Shown here: piece by piece, positions 49,480 through 60,069 of the stretch
Layout of the letters: each line of letters begins with the position of its first letter
Numbering within the stretch: the first letter of the stretch is position 1
Source: an uncultured Methylococcaceae bacterium
Lineage (GTDB): Bacteria; Pseudomonadota; Gammaproteobacteria; Methylococcales; Methylomonadaceae
Length of the DNA stretch: 64,000 bases
Assembly (NCBI GenBank): GCA_903859415.1
Contig: CAIOMN010000229.1
Span: 1-64,000 of the forward strand
Reading direction: 5' to 3'
Position numbers and translations under genes: made by a program
Notes under the pieces: model-generated
Database searches by the model: none
What the model was told of the DNA's origin: nothing
The model's input: only the letters and a program-made list of their open reading frames with translations

Positions 49480-50877
49480 CTACAAATGGTAAGCTGTTTC
49501 TCCATGCTCAGAGATATCTAAACCTTCACGTTCGGCTTCTTCGCTGACTCTTAAGCCCATTACAATATCAATTAATTTAAAAGCTATAAAAGACACTATA
49601 CCCGACCAGACAATACAGATACTTACACCCCAAAGTTGACTTATAAACTGCGTTGAAAAACTGTATTCTGCTACACCATTGGCAACATAATCCCATACAC
49701 CCGTACCGCCTAAAGCTGGATTTGCCACGACTGAAGTTCCTAAAGCACCAATAATTCCACCAATGCCGTGAACACCAAATGCGTCTAAAGAATCATCGTA
49801 ACCCATTAGACTCTTCAAACTTGTCACCGCAACAAAACAAGCGACACCCGCAACCAAACCTAATCCGATAGAACCCATCGGGCCTGCCCAACCACATGCT
49901 GGTGTAATAGCAACTAAACCAGCAATTGCACCCGATGCGCCACCTAACATACTTGGTTTACCACGAATAATCCATTCTGCACCACTCCAGGCCAATGTGG
50001 CTGCGGCACTTGCTAGTAAGGTATTAACAAAAACCAGGGCAGAAAGACCGTTCGCTTCTAAATTAGAACCTACGTTAAAACCAAACCAACCTACCCATAA
50101 TAAAGAAGCACCCACCATTGTCATCGTGACACTGTGTGGAGCAAGTGATTCTTTGTTATAACCAATACGTTTACCAACGATCAAACAGCCGACTAAGCCA
50201 GCAATACCCGCGTTAATATGAACAACCGTACCACCCGCAAAATCTAAAGCGCCTTTTTGAAATAGAAAACCTGCCGTAGCACCCGCAGTAGTACCCGATG
50301 CGGCATCAGTATAGGCATCAGGACCTGCCCAATACCAAACCATGTGAGCCATGGGTAAATAAGCGAAAGTAAACCAGATTAACATAAACACTAATATTGC
50401 TGAAAACTTAACCCGCTCAGCAAAAGCACCGATAATCAAAGCCGGAGTGATGCCCGCAAACGTTAACTGAAATGCCACATAAATATATTCAGGAATATAA
50501 ACCCCTTTAGTGAAGCTAGCCGCCATTGAGTCTGGTGTGATACCCAACAGAAACAGCTTACTAAATCCACCAATAAAAGGGCTACCTTCAGTGAAGGCAA
50601 GACTATAACCGTAAAGAGCCCATAGCACAGCCATCATAGAAAAAATAATAAATACCTGCATTAATACAGAAAGCATATTTTTTGCACGTACCATACCGCC
50701 ATAAAATAAAGCTAAGCCTGGAATAACCATCAGGATAACCAGAACGGTTGCTACAATCATCCAGGCGGTATCGCCTTTATTGATGCTAGGCGCAACTACT
50801 GCAGCAGGATCCGCCAACGCAAATCCAGCAAAACTGACCAACGCAACAAAAATAAAGCTATTTAATAACTGTTTCAT
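49480..50877 (-). CDS. amtB: Ammonium transporter AmtB
   Basis: Inner-membrane ammonium channel (465 aa): an N-terminal signal peptide (cleavage after ALA), then eleven helices. The twin-His pore residues fall in GGTVVHINAGIAGLVG and DAFGVHGIGGIIGALG. The cytoplasmic C-terminal tail (GLRVSEEAEREGLDISEHGETAYHL) is the GlnK-binding signature. It follows glnK by 18 bases in an operon under a sigma-54 promoter. Confidence 0.97.
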   Translation of the reverse strand: MKQLLNSFIFVALVSFAGFALADPAAVVAPSINKGDTAWMIVATVLVILMVIPGLALFYGGMVRAKNMLSVLMQVFIIFSMMAVLWALYGYSLAFTEGSPFIGGFSKLFLLGITPDSMAASFTKGVYIPEYIYVAFQLTFAGITPALIIGAFAERVKFSAILVFMLIWFTFAYLPMAHMVWYWAGPDAYTDAASGTTAGATAGFLFQKGALDFAGGTVVHINAGIAGLVGCLIVGKRIGYNKESLAPHSVTMTMVGASLLWVGWFGFNVGSNLEANGLSALVFVNTLLASAAATLAWSGAEWIIRGKPSMLGGASGAIAGLVAITPACGWAGPMGSIGLGLVAGVACFVAVTSLKSLMGYDDSLDAFGVHGIGGIIGALGTSVVANPALGGTGVWDYVANGVAEYSFSTQFISQLWGVSICIVWSGIVSFIAFKLIDIVMGLRVSEEAEREGLDISEHGETAYHL

Positions 50878-50895: not shown

Positions 50896-51273
<378 letters not shown>

Positions 51274-51714: not shown

Positions 51715-53136
51715 TTACTCATCAGCCTCGATTCCCAACTCCTTTATCTTACGCGTCAAAGTATTTCGACCGTAACCCAATAAAACTGAAGCCTCATGAC
51801 GCCTGCCATGAGTAAAATCAAGAGCCGCTTTAATTAAAATCGCTTCAACGGTTGGAATCGTATGCTTCGCAACTTCGGGTTCTTTTGAAAGAAGCTGCAG
51901 ATCAATCCAATTTCTAAGTAGCGTCTCCCAATCGGCTCCAGCATTATCTTTTTCGATAGGAGCAGTCAATAACTCAGGTGGTAAATCATGTAAATGAATT
52001 TCTCTGCTGGATGCCATTACCGTTAACCAACGGCAACTATTTTCTAATTGCCTGACATTTCCTGGCCATTCTAAAGTACTTAAATAAGCCTCTGCATCAG
52101 ACTTCAAAACCTTATTTTCAACACCTAACTCCGAAGCTGCCTGCTGCAAAAAATGCCGCAACAACAAAGGTATATCCTGCTTTCTCTCACGTAAAGCCGG
52201 AATATGAATACGAATGACATTTAAACGATGAAATAGATCTTCTCGAAAACGTCCTTGTTCAACTAATACCTCAAGATTTTGGTGCGTAGCAGCAATAATA
52301 CGCACATCAACCTTAATGGCCAAATGCGCACCGACTGGATAAAACTCACCATCAGCCAGCACCCTTAATAATCGGGTTTGTAATTCTGCAGGCATATCAC
52401 CTATCTCATCCAGAAATAGAGTTCCCCCATTAGCTTGCTCAAAGCGCCCCGCTCGTCGTGCTTGAGCCCCTGTAAATGCCCCTTTCTCATGTCCAAAGAG
52501 CTCAGATTCCATCAAATCTTTTGGAATCGCCGCCATATTCAAGGCAATAAAGGGACTTTTAGATCGAGGGCTATGTCGATGTAATGCCTTAGCAACTAAC
52601 TCCTTACCTGTACCCGATTCACCATTAATAAGCACAGTAATATGTGATCTAGCCAAACGACCAATCGCCCTAAAAACTTCTTGCATCGCAGGTGCTTCAC
52701 CAATAATTTCTGGTGTTGGCTCACTACTAGCGGTCGCAGTACGCGACGCATCACTTTGCTGCTGACGACCGTGTAAACATGCTCGCTGCGCCAGACTAAC
52801 AACCTCCTTAATATCAAAAGGTTTAGGCAAATACTCAAAAGCCCCTCCATGAAAAGCAGACACTGCACTCTCCAAATCCGAATGCGCTGTCATTACAATC
52901 ACAGGCAAATTAGGATGACTCAACTGAACCTTATCCAAAAGCTCAAGACCATCCATACCAGGCATACGAATATCAGTTATCAATGCATCTGGCAAATCAC
53001 CTTCTAATGCGTTTAGAAAATCCTGCCCAGCAGAGAATGTGCGAGTGACAATATCTGCTTTTTGTAACGCTTTCTCAACAACCCAACGTATCGATTTATC
53101 ATCATCAACAATCCAGACAGTATCAGGTTTAGCCAT
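51715..53136 (-). CDS. ntrC: Nitrogen regulation response regulator NtrC
   Basis: 473-aa enhancer-binding activator for nitrogen-limitation genes. The receiver domain has Asp55 (LITDIRMPG), the AAA+ domain has [11 protein letters not shown], the sigma-54 loop GAFTGA and [13 protein letters not shown], and the Fis-type HTH is [21 protein letters not shown]. It overlaps ntrB by 8 bases. Its likely targets in this window are the glnK-amtB, porin and type III glutamine synthetase promoters. Confidence 0.97.
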
Positions 53137-54217
53137 GACCTATCTCCATAGGCAAAAATATTGAAAATATTGTATTTCCTGGCTGACTATTGCACTCTAT
53201 CAAACCATTATGCTGAGTAATTAAAGCTTGCGCAATTGACAACCCCAAACCAGTCCCTTCTGCTCGACCAGTAATCATGGGGTAAAATATTTGATTCATC
53301 ATATTGGCATCTATACCAGGCCCGCTATCGATAATGTCACACTTAACCGCTAATTTATATCGTTTACGGCCTATATTCATATGCCGATATATTCGAGTTT
53401 TAAAAATAATGCGCCCCTTTCCTTCCATTGCCTGAACCGCATTTTTAGCAATATTTAAGATTGCTTGAATGAGTTGGTCCTTATCAGCAAAAATATCAGG
53501 AATACTGGGATCATAATCACTTTGAATAATCAAACTCCCACTAGATTCTGCTTGAACCAATTGCCTGACTCGCTCTAATACTTCATGAATATTAATCGCT
53601 TTTTTATTCGGCAACTTATTCGGTCCTAACATTTTATCTAATAATCCCTGTAGACGATCTGACTCGGCAATAATAATTTGAGTGTATTCTTTCAGTTCTG
53701 GGTCGTCTAACTCTAAATCCAGCAACTGCGCTGCACCCCGCAAGCCACCCAAAGGATTTTTTATTTCATGAGCCAATCCCCTAACCAGCAATCTAGCCGT
53801 ATTCTGTTGCGATAATAATTGCTCTTCCTTTGAGATACGCAAATGGTTATCGACTTGTTGGAATTCAACCAATATTTCATTCACTTCCTCATCCACTAAT
53901 AACGGTGTAGCGCTAAAATTGGTCGTCACATTCTGTGGCGTTCGACCTAAGGTCAATGCCCGATCAACCAATGGCTCAGACATAGCCAATGACTGTTTCA
54001 GATTTATTAGTAATGCTGGATCAGATGCCTTAAACAACTCCTCAGCACTTTGCCCTACTAAATGATGAGCACTATCAGCAAACAGAATTTCTCCTGTTGT
54101 ATTAATAAAAGTAAGTATTAATTCACGATCAAACAATAAAATTGCAGTATTAAGATGATCCAGCATTCGTTTATACATTGTCTTTTTAATCAGTCCTTTT
54201 TTGATATAAAGATTCAT
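53129..54217 (-). CDS. ntrB: Nitrogen regulation sensor kinase NtrB
   Basis: Soluble kinase/phosphatase that phosphorylates NtrC and is switched by P-II. It has an N-terminal PAS domain (LNTAILLFDRELILTFINTTG), the H-box RGLAHEIKNPLGGLRGAAQL, then DSGPGID and GTGLGLSIAQ. The frame is open from 54271; I chose ATG 54217, with ATG 54178 nearly as good and neither having a clear ribosome site. No transmembrane segments, as expected. Confidence 0.94.
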   Translation of the reverse strand: MNLYIKKGLIKKTMYKRMLDHLNTAILLFDRELILTFINTTGEILFADSAHHLVGQSAEELFKASDPALLINLKQSLAMSEPLVDRALTLGRTPQNVTTNFSATPLLVDEEVNEILVEFQQVDNHLRISKEEQLLSQQNTARLLVRGLAHEIKNPLGGLRGAAQLLDLELDDPELKEYTQIIIAESDRLQGLLDKMLGPNKLPNKKAINIHEVLERVRQLVQAESSGSLIIQSDYDPSIPDIFADKDQLIQAILNIAKNAVQAMEGKGRIIFKTRIYRHMNIGRKRYKLAVKCDIIDSGPGIDANMMNQIFYPMITGRAEGTGLGLSIAQALITQHNGLIECNSQPGNTIFSIFLPMEIGHG

Positions 54218-54444: not shown

Positions 54445-55854
54445 TTACAGACTGTAGTACATATCGTATTCAGCTGGGTGAGTACTCATGCGTAAACGAG
54501 TGACTTCTTCCATTTTCAACGCTATGTAACCATCAATTACGTCATCAGTGAAAACGCCACCTTTTTTCAGGAAGTCACGATCTGCATCTAACGCTTCTAA
54601 AGCTTGATCAAATGAATGGCACACTTGTGGGATAAGCTTTGCTTCTTCAGCGGGTAAATCATACAAATCTTTATCCATCGGATCGCCAGGATGAATTTTG
54701 TTTTGAATACCGTCTAAACCTGCCATTAACATTGCAGCGAAGGCTAAATAAGGGTTAGCGGTTGAATCAGGGAAGCGCACTTCAATGCGACGACCTTTTG
54801 GATTGTTTACAAAAGGAATACGGATAGAAGCAGAGCGGTTACGTGCTGAGTAAGCCAACATAACAGGCGCTTCAAAACCAGGCACTAAGCGTTTATAACT
54901 GTTAGTTGAGGCATTGGTAAACGCATTTAAAGCTCTAGCGTGCTTAATGATACCGCCAATGTAATACAATGCAGTTTCAGATAAGCCACCGTATAAATCA
55001 CCTGTAAACAAGTTAACACCGTCTTTAGCCAACGATTGGTGTACGTGCATACCGCTACCGTTATCACCGACTAAGGGTTTAGGCATAAAAGTCGCTGTTT
55101 TGCCATAAGCATGAGCAATATTAGCAACAACATATTTTAATTCTAAAACTTCATCCGCCTTTTTAACTAGCGTATTAAATTTAACGCCGATTTCACATTG
55201 ACCTGCTGTCGCTACTTCATGGTGATGTACTTCCGTTACCATGCCCATTTCTTCTAAAGTCAAGCACATTGCAGAACGCATGTCTTGGAGAGAATCGACT
55301 GGAGGCACCGGGAAGTAACCGCCTTTAACACCAGGACGGTGACCCGTATTACCATCAGGGTACACTTTTTCTGAGTTCCAACCCGCTTCTTCAGAATCAA
55401 TTTTATAAAATGAACCACTTATATCAGTGCCCCAACGGACATCATCAAAGATAAAGAATTCATTTTCTGGGCCGAAAAACGCCGTATCTGCAATACCGGT
55501 TGATTTTAAATATTGCTCTGCACGTTTAGCTAAAGAACGAGGATCACGCTCATAACCTTGCATGTTTTTTGGCTCAATAATGTCACAACGCAAAATTAAA
55601 GTGTTGTCATCAAAGAACGGATCAATAACCGCTGTTGAGGGATCAGGCAATAAAATCATGTCTGATTCGTTGATGTGCTTCCAGCCAGCGACTGATGATC
55701 CATCAAACATATTACCTTCTTCAAAGGTATCTTCATCTATTGAATGCGCTGGAAATGTTACATGCTGCTCTTTACCACGTGTATCAACGAAACGAAAATC
55801 AACAAATTTGATATCGTTTTCTTCAATCAATTTTAATACTTTTTTTACAGACAT
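54445..55854 (-). CDS. glnA: Glutamine synthetase type I
   Basis: ATP-dependent ligation of ammonia to glutamate; 469-aa dodecameric GSI-beta enzyme. The catalytic loop is [11 protein letters not shown], the ATP-binding part is [17 protein letters not shown], the glutamate loop is [10 protein letters not shown], and the adenylylation Tyr is in [11 protein letters not shown] near the C terminus. Regulation by GlnE adenylylation is therefore likely. It lies upstream of ntrBC as in enterobacteria, but with a terminator between them. Confidence 0.97.
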
Positions 55855-55914: not shown

Positions 55915-55942
55915 ATTATAAAGATACCATTTTTCTTGTCGA
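55915..55942 (-). promoter_or_regulatory. Sigma-70-type promoter of glnA
   Basis: On the minus strand TCGACA (55942-55937), a 16-base spacer and a perfect TATAAT (55920-55915) lie about 60 bases before the glnA ATG. It would give basal expression of glnA. Confidence 0.6.
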
Positions 55943-56035: not shown

Positions 56036-56084
56036 TGCACACTTTTAAAACAAAGCATCATTAAAAATGCACCATTATAGATCA
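56036..56084. promoter_or_regulatory. NtrC-like boxes upstream of the porin (repeat copy 2)
   Basis: TGCACCATTATAGATCA (56068-56084) has a perfect left half-site and the same right half as the ntrB-upstream copy. A second half-site TGCAC starts at 56036, 32 bases earlier, the spacing of enhancer pairs in E. coli glnA. The main box is centred about 96 bases upstream of the predicted porin start site and could also influence glnA. Confidence 0.55.
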
Positions 56085-56144: not shown

Positions 56145-56161
56145 TTGGCACAACTTTTGCT
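56145..56161 (+). promoter_or_regulatory. Consensus sigma-54 promoter of the porin gene
   Basis: TTGGCACAACTTTTGCT is a perfect TGGCAC-N5-TTGC match with the expected flanking bases. Transcription should begin near 56172, leaving a leader of about 80 bases before the ATG at 56252. Confidence 0.92.
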
Positions 56162-56251
56162 ATAATTATTCCAGTGTTCTTTGTCTAGTTACCAAAGGAG
56201 TTGTTATTTAACAACAGAGCACCATTTTTTAAGTCATTAAGAGGAATTAAA

Positions 56252-57595
56252 ATGAAACAACTACCTATAAGCAAAAGCCAGGCAATTATCGCTGCTGCGA
56301 GTGGACTTTTGTCACTTACACTTAGCGCAACTCAAGCCCACGCTGCAGGTGCAATACCATCTCTGACGGGTTACGACATTAATGAATCCAGCTTTTTGAA
56401 AGATAACGGAATAACAGTCAATGGCAACGCTAATGCTGGCATTACCTACAATGGCAACAACCCAACCAATGGCTTTAACGGCCCAGTTACTTTCGGCGAT
56501 CGCTCAAGCGAATTCCAGTTAAACCAATTAAACTTATCCATCCAAAAAGCGGTCGCTACTGAAGGCGACAAATGGAGCTTCGGCGGTCGCTTTGATGCTA
56601 TGTTTGGTACCGATTCCATCTTCACCCAAGCTTACGGCGTTCCCGCTTATAACGTCAATTCGCCTGGACAGGCACTTAGCAGAAACAACTGGGATTTAAA
56701 CATTTTAGGTACTGCGGGTAATCGCTTTTACGGTATTGCATTACCTCAAGCTTACCTTGAAACCTATGTACCTGTCGGCAATGGCTTAGATGTTAAATTG
56801 GGTCACTTTTATACACCAATCGGTTATGAAACTGTACCGGCCAATGAAAACTTCTTCTACACCCATGCTTACACCATGCAATATGGCGAACCATTCACGC
56901 ACACTGGCGCATTGGGTAACTATGCGTTCAGCTCAAACTGGTCAGCCATGGGCGGCGTAACCACTGGCAGCTCAACGGGCGGCTGGGACGGTGGTTTTAA
57001 CCAACAACTAAGCAATTGGAGTGGCATCGGCGGTGTAACCTGGACTAGCAACGACAAAGGCTCATCTGCCAATGTTAGCGGTACTTACGGCGCAGCATCA
57101 TCATTAAGCAGCCATGCATGGGCAATGTACAGTATCGTGTTAAAACACAACTTTACTGACAAAACCCATTTTGTATTACAACACGACCATGGTTTTGCTA
57201 ATGCTGTCTATGGAGCCGACGGCACCATTCAAGACGCACAATGGTATGGCGTCAACTCTCACCTGTACTACGACATTAAAGACAACCTATCAATCGGCAT
57301 GCGTGCTGAATGGTTCCGCGATCAAAATGGTTTTCGAGTGGCTCAAGCTGGTCGTATAGCTGGCGCCCTTAATGGAAGCGGTTATAGTTACGCCGGCCAA
57401 TATTATGGTGGAGCAGCAGCCAGTTATTACGAACTTACCTGGGGCGTAAACTGGAAACCGGTGTCATGGCTAAACTTACGTCCAAACGTTCGCTATGATC
57501 GTGTCGATGGAACTCAAGCGGGTACCGCTTACACTCCATTTGGAGGACAAACTGATCAAGTCTTATTCTCTAATGACTTTATCGTTACTTTCTAA
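56252..57595 (+). CDS. Outer-membrane porin, BBP2/OmpL-like
   Basis: 447 aa from ATG 56252, which follows AGAGGAATTAAA; a 17-codon upstream extension is not needed. A signal peptide ends at AHA (about residue 32). The mature protein is rich in alternating beta strands with aromatic girdles (DVKLGHFYTPIGYETVPANE) and ends in a terminal Phe (FIVTF), the beta-barrel assembly signal recognised by BAM. The HFYTPIGYE and YGEPFTHTG segments point to the beta-barrel porin-2 family. A consensus sigma-54 promoter and position between two glutamine synthetases suggest uptake of a nitrogen compound. Confidence 0.88.
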   Translation: MKQLPISKSQAIIAAASGLLSLTLSATQAHAAGAIPSLTGYDINESSFLKDNGITVNGNANAGITYNGNNPTNGFNGPVTFGDRSSEFQLNQLNLSIQKAVATEGDKWSFGGRFDAMFGTDSIFTQAYGVPAYNVNSPGQALSRNNWDLNILGTAGNRFYGIALPQAYLETYVPVGNGLDVKLGHFYTPIGYETVPANENFFYTHAYTMQYGEPFTHTGALGNYAFSSNWSAMGGVTTGSSTGGWDGGFNQQLSNWSGIGGVTWTSNDKGSSANVSGTYGAASSLSSHAWAMYSIVLKHNFTDKTHFVLQHDHGFANAVYGADGTIQDAQWYGVNSHLYYDIKDNLSIGMRAEWFRDQNGFRVAQAGRIAGALNGSGYSYAGQYYGGAAASYYELTWGVNWKPVSWLNLRPNVRYDRVDGTQAGTAYTPFGGQTDQVLFSNDFIVTF

Positions 57596-57622: not shown

Positions 57623-57650
57623 AAAAATGCGCCTGACGGCGCATTTTTTT
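57623..57650 (+). terminator. Rho-independent terminator of the porin gene
   Basis: AAAAATGCGCC and GGCGCATTTTT pair around TGAC, continuing into a run of eight T. It begins 28 bases after the stop codon, so the downstream glutamine synthetase has its own promoter. Confidence 0.93.
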
Positions 57651-57688
57651 TGCTCAAATATTAACCATTACTGTGAACGCATTAGCAA

Positions 57689-57734
57689 TGCATCATTATG
57701 GTGCACAATCAAATCAATGCACCAGAACAACTCG
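57689..57734 (+). promoter_or_regulatory. NtrC-type enhancer pair of the type III glutamine synthetase
   Basis: TGCATCATTATGGTGCA (57689-57705) differs from the TGCACCA-N3-TGGTGCA consensus at one base. A second site, with perfect left half TGCACCA, starts at 57718, 29 bases later. They lie about 130-160 bases upstream of the predicted start site. Confidence 0.75.
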
Positions 57735-57828
57735 CCTTTCAGACTTGTGCTTACTAATATTACTAATGACTGACATCAAAAGTTGGCTATTTCTAGACCT
57801 CAGCACCTCACTCGGACTATTTTAATAA

Positions 57829-57845
57829 CTGGTTCAATTATTGCT
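57829..57845 (+). promoter_or_regulatory. Sigma-54 promoter of the type III glutamine synthetase
   Basis: CTGGTTCAATTATTGCT has the -24 GG and -12 TTGC 12 bases apart, with TTC in place of CAC. Transcription should begin near 57856, about 39 bases before the ATG at 57895. Confidence 0.7.
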
Positions 57846-57894
57846 ATCCCTTTAAAACAACCAAACTAAATTCACTATGATACAGGGGAAAAAT

Positions 57895-60069
57895 ATGACT
57901 GGAAATGCTGCCCGCATTCAAGCTGTTCAAAACATCACTAACCGTCAACCTATGCCCGTTTCAATGCCGGACTCGTTGGCTAATCTTTGGGCAAGTGATG
58001 TCTTTACGCTCAGTAAAATGAAAGAAAGCCTGCCTAAAGACGTTTTTAAGTCAGTCAAGAAAACAATTGAAACAGGAGAAGCACTGGATGTTTCAATTGC
58101 AGATATAGTCGCCTTAGCCATGAAAGATTGGGCCTTATCAAAAGGTGCATTATATTATGCCCACGTCTTTTATCCGTTAACCAATGCTACCGCAGAAAAA
58201 CACGATGGATTTATTTCTGTCCAGAGCGATGGCTCTGTTATCTCTGAATTTGGTGGTAAAGTATTAGTACAAGGCGAACCTGACGGCTCATCATTCCCTA
58301 ATGGTGGCATCCGCTCTACGTTTGAAGCACGTGGCTATACTGCATGGGACGTAACCAGCCCAGCTTACATCATGACCACCGATAACGGCGCAACTCTATG
58401 CATCCCAACTGTTTTCGTATCCTGGACTGGAGAAGCACTGGATAAAAAAACACCGCTACTCCGCTCTAATGCTGCCATGAACAAAGCAGCAAAAAGAGTA
58501 CTTTCCTTATTGGGCAATACTGAAATTGCTCCGGTTAACTCAAGCTGTGGAGCAGAACAAGAATACTTTCTAGTCGATGCAAATTTCGTCAACACCCGTC
58601 CTGACTTGCTGTTATCGGGCCGTACCTTATTAGGCGCTTCTCCTGCAAAGGGCCAACAATTTGACGACCATTACTTTGGCGCCATTCCAGAACGCATCCA
58701 GGTTTATATGCAGGATGTAGAAGAACAGTTGTATCGCTTAGGCATTCCAGCAAAAACGCGCCATAATGAAGTAGCTCCAGGTCAGTTTGAAATCGCTCCT
58801 TTCCATGAAGCCGCGAATGTCGCTACTGATCATCAACAACTCATCATGACCGTGTTAAAAAACACCGCCAAAAAACACGGCCTTGTCTGTTTGCTGCATG
58901 AAAAACCATTTAAGGGCATCAATGGCTCAGGTAAACATGTTAACTGGTCAGTGGGTAACGCTACGCAAGGCAACCTACTAGACCCAGGTCACACCCCTCA
59001 CTCAAATACTCAATTTCTATTATTCTGTGGCGCAGTCATCCGTGGCGTACATAAATACGGCCCGCTGTTACGTGCCGCTATCGCTTCAGCCAGTAACGAT
59101 CACAGACTAGGTGCCAATGAAGCTCCTCCAGCTATCATGTCAGTTTACTTAGGCTCACAACTTGATAACGTTTTTGAGCAAATTAGCCAAGGTAAAATCA
59201 CTGGCTCTTTAAATGCTGGCATAATGGACTTAGGCATCTCTACACTCCCCACCTTTAACAAAGACGCGGGTGACAGAAACCGTACGTCTCCTTTTGCCTT
59301 TACTGGAAACCGTTTTGAATTCCGCGCCGTTGGCTCAGGCCAATCGGTTGCAGGCCCATTAGTTTCAATGAACACAATGTTAGCTGATTCACTTAACTGG
59401 GTTGCTGATAGCCTAGAAGATCAGTTATCAAAAGGAAAGGATCTTGACTCAGCCATACTGTCTACACTCAAAGAAATCATCGATACCCACGGCGCAGTTG
59501 TCTTTGGTGGCAATGGTTATTCATCTGAATGGCATAAAATGGCAGTTGAAGAGCGCGGACTGGCCAACCTTAAAACAGCGGCTGATGCGCTACCTGTTTT
59601 AAAAGAAAAGTATATTGAAGACTTATTCGACAAGCTCGGTGTTTTATCACCTGTTGAATTAGCGAGTCGCTTTGAGATTTACGCCGAGCAATACATTCTT
59701 GCAATTGAAGTTGAAGCAAAATTAGTCGTCAGTATGATTAAAACCGGGATTTACCCAGCCGTAGTCAAATACTTATCTGATTTGTCTTCTACTTTTAGCA
59801 GCTTGAAAAGCAATGGCATTGAACTGGATAATAGCCGTTTAACGTTTATTAGTGAGCAACTCAATTCATTGACTGCCACTGTAGATACCTTAAAGTCTGC
59901 TATTGCTCAACATGATTTCGATAGCATCGAAGAACACATGCAATTCTGTGCCAAAACTATTCGTCCCTTAATGGATGAAGCACGTGGCTTTGCTGATGCC
60001 CTTGAAAATGAAGTGTCAGATGAATTATGGCCATTCCCGACTTACCAAGAAATGCTGTTTATTAAATAA
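57895..60069 (+). CDS. glnN: Glutamine synthetase type III
   Basis: 724-aa GSIII, much longer than GlnA and of a different class. ATG 57895 follows AGGGGAAAAAT; an ATG at 57877 has no site. The N-terminal part has [18 protein letters not shown], the catalytic region [11 protein letters not shown], then [20 protein letters not shown] and [16 protein letters not shown] (the ATP/substrate signature), and [26 protein letters not shown]-specific helical C terminus covers roughly the last 170 residues. Hexamer stacks and lack of adenylylation are expected. A sigma-54 promoter with paired NtrC boxes suggests induction under nitrogen starvation. Confidence 0.95.

Follow-up and report, generated by a model that had tools for sequence, protein, structure and literature searches.

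A BBP2-family outer-membrane porin of Methylococcales with a sigma-54 promoter and ammonium-gene neighbours, a candidate nitrogen-starvation porin

PhoE and OprP/OprO are barrels induced by phosphate starvation under Pho control, and each serves an inner-membrane uptake system. The porin described here would play a similar role with nitrogen instead of phosphate and sigma-54 instead of Pho control. It belongs to the BBP2 family (PF07642), both by sequence membership and by its modelled 16-strand barrel. The family is listed as TC 1.B.66 with the substrate given as '?', and neither the nitrogen promoter nor the linkage to glnA and Amt found here is described in the portions available of that source (PMC4827864). 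In the anammox bacterium Kuenenia stuttgartiensis, the BBP2 gene KSMBR1_3177 is strongly upregulated under ammonium limitation and the authors suggest that ammonium enters through it (PMC7438415). That gene shares with our porin the family and the link to ammonium limitation, whereas it belongs to another phylum and neither an Amt linkage nor a promoter is reported for it in the accessible parts of that paper. In Leptospirillum a BBP2 porin lies downstream of kdpABC and is discussed for acid resistance (PMC7231039); this arrangement is like that of the second copy of Methylobacter tundripaludum SV96 treated below, and the available text describes no nitrogen link. Nothing on a link between porins and kdp was found in the parts consulted of PMC9062700 and PMC2700814. 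Starvation-induced porins are therefore already known, as is, from the accessible text of PMC7438415, a proposal of ammonium influx for one anammox BBP2 gene. A search mostly of titles and abstracts, with few subscription papers, found no report of a BBP2-Amt-GlnK linkage, of a sigma-54 promoter or of a joint NH4+/K+ pattern. Our main reading, to which we give a probability of roughly 60%, is that the protein is a nitrogen-starvation porin, induced by NtrC and sigma-54, that raises the permeability of the outer membrane to NH4+.

The window, that is, the whole stretch of 64,000 nucleotides analysed, comes from an uncultured Methylococcaceae bacterium, a methanotroph of the order Methylococcales. 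Open reading frames and profile searches gave the order amtB, glnK, ntrC, ntrB and glnA leftward, followed by the porin and a type III glutamine synthetase (GSIII) rightward, with the following features:

49480..50877, minus strand: amtB, ammonium transporter (TIGR00836 over cut-off, PF00909)
50896..51234, minus strand: glnK, P-II protein (NF007946 over cut-off)
51297-51282, minus strand: sigma-54-like site TGGCACAGTCTCTGCT of glnK (motif scan)
51715..53136, minus strand: ntrC (TIGR01818 over cut-off)
53129..54190, minus strand: ntrB (NF008293 over cut-off)
54445..55854, minus strand: glnA, type I glutamine synthetase, divergent from the porin (NF007006 over cut-off)
56068..56084, plus strand: NtrC-like half site TGCACCATTATAGATCA, at the place of the full palindrome in other species
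56145..56161, plus strand: sigma-54 (-24/-12) promoter TTGGCACAACTTTTGCT (motif scan, conservation)
56252..57595, plus strand: BBP2 outer-membrane porin, 447 aa (PF07642, E 2.4e-94)
57627..57652, plus strand: intrinsic terminator ATGCGCC-TGAC-GGCGCAT followed by Ts (-18.2 kcal/mol, z -5.0)
57689..57705, plus strand: NtrC-like palindrome TGCATCATTATGGTGCA upstream of GSIII (palindrome search)
57877..60069, plus strand: GSIII (PF12437, E 5e-73)

The porin is probably monocistronic because the intrinsic terminator lies directly 3' of the gene, although this hairpin is absent from the list of a separate terminator scan. As the hairpin and its T run follow the porin and an NtrC-like palindrome precedes GSIII, the two genes are probably separate nitrogen-controlled units. 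GSIII apparently has, in addition to its own palindrome, a sigma-54-like site with two mismatches, TGGTTCAATTATTGCT, within 57689-57845. For glnA a strong sigma-70-like promoter, TCGACA-16-TATAAT (11/12), was seen at 55915-55942 on the minus strand in a stretch conserved across species, and no sigma-54 site for this gene was seen by eye in the window. Rfam matched nothing between 55000 and 60500. Two facts of the gene arrangement count against our main reading: the amtB of the window is 5.4 kb away from the porin in a different transcription unit, and a further Amt is encoded in the same genome, at C236.

Regarding the promoter, TGGCACAACTTTTGCT at 56146-56161 is an exact sigma-54 core placed 90 bp upstream of the porin ATG, which stands at 56252 after AGAGGAA. 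It is the only zero-mismatch match to TGGCAC-N5-TTGCW across the 64 kb. The organism's own genome (3.72 Mb) has 7 exact sites vs 2 for the pattern read backwards, and encodes RpoN (PF04552, E 1.2e-65). One further exact site precedes nifH, evidence that the pattern marks genuine sigma-54 sites here. A scan of the window allowing two mismatches showed no enrichment (45 found vs 37 expected), therefore the support comes from exactness, position and conservation. The GG and GC of the motif, ten bases apart, are conserved among the orthologues; TGGCAY-N5-nTGCW is kept in 26 of the 27 related Methylococcales loci with at least 120 bp of upstream sequence, the sole exception being a copy within a kdp operon (L026), and the motif forms an island of identity in the alignment of the glnA-porin intergenic region of 22 loci and the window. 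A longer sigma-54 consensus has CACG after the -24 element. The original prediction had called this promoter a perfect, full consensus; the site before the porin is confirmed, and the description holds for all 11 core positions, whereas the longer consensus is not matched.

NtrC-like palindromes (GCAC-N7-GTGC with at most one mismatch) were found in 18 of 23 glnA-porin intergenic regions, compared with a rate of 2.8% in shuffled sequences. They are missing before the porin in the window and in L008, L012, L031 and L032. The window holds only the half site, which fails the one-mismatch test, and this counts against the main reading. Taken from the sequence, nitrogen control of the porin is well supported.

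The close relatives of the porin were collected with conserved peptides, so that the 29 related loci comprise close relatives only; their records are named Methylococcales, Methylococcaceae, Methylobacter, Crenothrix or uncultured proteobacterium. A divergent glnA is the neighbour in 23 of these 29 loci, and in 23 of the 25 where the upstream sequence suffices: four of the six loci without it end too near the porin, and L020 and L026 remain. Downstream of the porin we found glnK/amtB in 10 of the 29 and GSIII in 6 (16/29 together). In the L009 locus a second, divergent BBP2 porin (L009:13946-16502, minus strand), 42% identical to that of the window, is the immediate neighbour of a second Amt; the glnA-linked porin of this locus is about 2.6 kb away. 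A small exported protein of 111 aa is encoded 3' of the porin in L011, L017 and L021.

A wider, family-based sample of Methylococcales gave BBP2 matches over the cut-off in 47 of 61 genomes and no match at all in 13. From it 60 loci were fetched, which partially overlap with the 29-locus set (L202 and L025 are apparently the same place). GlnA, GSIII, GlnK or AmtB lies within 2.5 kb in 27 of the 60, true kdp genes are beside the porin in 4 (L245, labelled through a 38% KdpE-like regulator alone, is excluded from this count), and 28 have no nitrogen or Kdp neighbour. The sigma-54 motif is present upstream of 18 of the 60, namely 8 nitrogen-linked, 10 orphan and 0 kdp loci, compared with 2.6% of random windows. 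Ten of the 41 genomes sampled for this order have neither motif nor linkage, which, like the 13 genomes lacking any BBP2 match, also counts against the main reading. In L188, L189, L190 and L191 an orphan BBP2 gene with the sigma-54 motif is followed by one for a conserved exported protein of 107-129 aa, rich in Lys, Ala and Glu.

Outside these sets, 17 of 143 genomes of the class had a PF07642 match (12 over cut-off), as had 63 of 398 of the phylum Pseudomonadota (38 over cut-off). We analysed 49 loci, all over cut-off and outside the organism's own genome, two of them from the same order as the window; L071-L073, under the Pfam cut-off, and the over-cut-off matches G033:C18 and G177:C35 were left out. 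An Amt gene lies within 1.2 kb in 21 of the 49, mostly as porin-glnK-amtB on one strand, and the other 28 include one locus in a kdp operon (L063). As a control, none of 40 OprB loci had AmtB or GlnK within 4 kb (Fisher p 3.5e-7 vs BBP2); these were the best 20 and 20 lower-ranked matches with 4 kb flanks, 15 of them from family f174. Among the Amt-linked porins 15 of 21 have the sigma-54 motif upstream, vs 4 of the 28 unlinked ones (p 8e-5; 0.6% of random windows). The 21 linked loci come from seven families, yet 13 are from f174. In a rapidly built tree of 71 proteins, with long branches, rows below 45 bits omitted and no bootstrap, the Amt-linked porins do not form one clade and at least six changes are needed; on this tree, therefore, the linkage arose or was kept repeatedly.

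The original prediction of a nitrogen-controlled porin had proposed to compare the neighbours of homologues across genomes, where the absence of any link with nitrogen genes would speak against it. That comparison did find the link, and the prediction holds in this part: 26/27 loci keep the motif, 23/25 have glnA and 21/49 have Amt, vs 0/40 for OprB. Nevertheless, the BBP2 family in its entirety is not specific to ammonium, because 28/49 and 28/60 loci have no such neighbours and some lie, by eye, beside anion-type transporters. The wider family extends beyond cations, as downstream of the distant copies L246 and L247 there is, by eye, a DASS-like transporter of the anion/dicarboxylate type. 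A zinc-uptake porin is suggested by L070:6709-9734 (minus strand), where a weak relative of BBP2 precedes ZnuA and an ABC-3 permease. We considered a general metal-cation theme from this case and from L062, beside an RND efflux system by eye, and dropped it because the L070 score is weak and these are single cases.

Ammonium and potassium are similar in ionic size, and the second theme among the neighbours is potassium. M. tundripaludum SV96 has two BBP2 copies, mutually 84.5% identical. The nitrogen copy has glnA on one side and glnK-amtB-glnK2-amtB2 on the other, and TGGCATTTTATTTGCT stands 75 bp upstream of its start; the other copy lies between kdpC and kdpD of kdpABC-kdpDE. This kdp copy shares 91.7% identity with the porin of Ca. 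Methylobacter oryzae that is linked to glnA and glnK-amtB, and it retains at about the same distance (75 bp) the sequence CGGAATCTTATTTGCT, two mismatches from the sigma-54 motif and possibly a decayed relic of such a site. To judge from these identities and contexts, one recently shared channel would be the partner of both an NH4+ and a K+ system in SV96. In another locus, L236, one of the 28 loci of the order without a nitrogen or Kdp neighbour, the potassium genes Kup and TrkA follow the porin. These contexts would fit a BBP2 subfamily whose barrels are outer-membrane channels dedicated to small monovalent cations and have been recruited either to Amt/GlnK (NH4+, under sigma-54/NtrC) or to Kdp or Kup/Trk (K+), as the outer-membrane counterparts of these uptake systems. 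We put this forward tentatively, short of even odds; an exchange between NH4+ and K+ partners is indicated by the kdp copy of SV96, which resembles the nitrogen porin of M. oryzae and keeps the decayed site.

The protein itself matches BBP2 with 316.8 bits (cut-off 26.2), covering positions 2-339 of the 339 of the profile; in an hmmscan at E 1e-3 this was the only match, with Porin_4 and OprB unmatched, and NCBIfam gives it no name. A signal peptide is recognisable by eye and the C-terminal residue is Phe. Searching the sequences of solved structures returned nothing useful, only mL49 with E 0.43. An AlphaFold2 model from 25 aligned sequences predicts, with moderate confidence (pLDDT 67, pTM 0.71), a 16-strand beta barrel of the outer membrane. 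The nearest solved folds are OprO (Z 25.0), OprP (24.8) and OprB (23.7), with DcaP, PorB, OmpF and OmpC also among the matches, which overall have Z 22-25 and 8-13% identity. The phosphate porins OprO and OprP are the best matches in overall fold, with 10-12% identity in the fold alignment. The modelled fold thus sets the protein among the classical porins and names no substrate, and the constriction residues are unreadable from it because the loops are too uncertain (residues 190-199 and 203-214, for example, are below pLDDT 50). Net charge was tried as a proxy for cation selectivity and decides nothing, as the medians of acid minus base residues in Amt-linked, Methylococcales and other BBP2 proteins (15, 11 and 9) belong to overlapping groups.

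In the proposed mechanism, NtrB would phosphorylate NtrC when fixed nitrogen is scarce and glutamine is low. NtrC, presumably bound in the glnA-porin intergenic region, would then act at 56146-56161 on the sigma-54 polymerase, and synthesis of the porin would accompany that of GlnA, GSIII and GlnK-AmtB. If active as a channel for NH4+, the 16-strand barrel would raise the permeability of the outer membrane to this ion, and periplasmic ammonium would thereby stay at a level sufficient for AmtB and glutamine synthetase. The gene contexts suggest NH4+, a cation of about the size of K+, as the substrate, because the linked genes are amtB, glnK, glnA, GSIII and, as a second theme, kdp. Other recognised porins are scarce in the genome: there are one Porin_4 below the threshold, two OprB, and one intact and one split BBP2. 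Consequently, such a methanotroph could feel an outer-membrane limit more than E. coli does. The split copy (L040, G000 contig 39:12669-13564) lies in two frames at a contig end, beside a hemerythrin-like ORF recognised by eye, and is either a broken gene or an assembly error.

The same scarcity of porins would also suit a general porin of weak selectivity, upregulated under nitrogen limitation, for which ammonium is one solute among many and the linkage reflects regulation only. The ordinary 16-strand fold, with OmpF, OmpC and PorB as well as OprP and OprB all near Z 22-25, agrees with this, and so do the many BBP2 loci without an informative neighbour. However, porins of the OprB type show no Amt linkage in 40 loci, and nitrogen regulation leaves unexplained why the second recurrent context is Kdp or Kup/Trk, again that of a small monovalent cation. 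We therefore regard a general porin as rather doubtful, and prefer a channel that raises ammonium permeability.

Control of the sigma-54/Ntr type would fit any nitrogen source, and the original prediction favoured another nitrogen compound, such as urea, nitrate, amino acids, amides or peptides, on the argument that ammonia crosses general porins freely. Ammonium at neutral pH is a charged ion. The argument is not supported: general porins cannot simply be presumed in this genome, which has no Porin_4 over the cut-off and only two OprB besides BBP2. In an inspection by eye, a NitT/TauT-like ABC system (nitrate/taurine-type) was noticed beside BBP2 only at the orphan copies L231 and L235, but the neighbours in both the Methylococcales and the phylum sets are ammonium genes and the kdp contexts do not fit, so we consider a substrate of this kind very improbable. 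Those kdp contexts would be expected of a channel mainly for K+ or for ion balance, co-opted into nitrogen operons through the interplay of NH4+ and K+ homeostasis: BBP2 is inside kdp in SV96 and G040 and beside kdp in 4/60 loci of the order, kup/trkA adjoin L236, and the available text on Leptospirillum describes a kdp cluster (PMC7231039). Nevertheless, Amt is far commoner than Kdp (21 vs 1 of 49 loci; 27 nitrogen-linked vs 4 Kdp of 60), and sigma-54 sites precede many nitrogen copies and none of the Kdp copies, which makes a primary role in potassium uptake very improbable.

The passage of ammonium and potassium through the outer membrane is usually ignored when their uptake is considered. 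If the porin is dedicated to ammonium, the affinity for ammonium that methanotrophs and other Gram-negative bacteria have in nutrient-poor water would be set partly at the outer membrane, and TC 1.B.66 would gain a substrate that can be tested. SV96 offers for this a natural pair of near-identical channels that would serve two ions.
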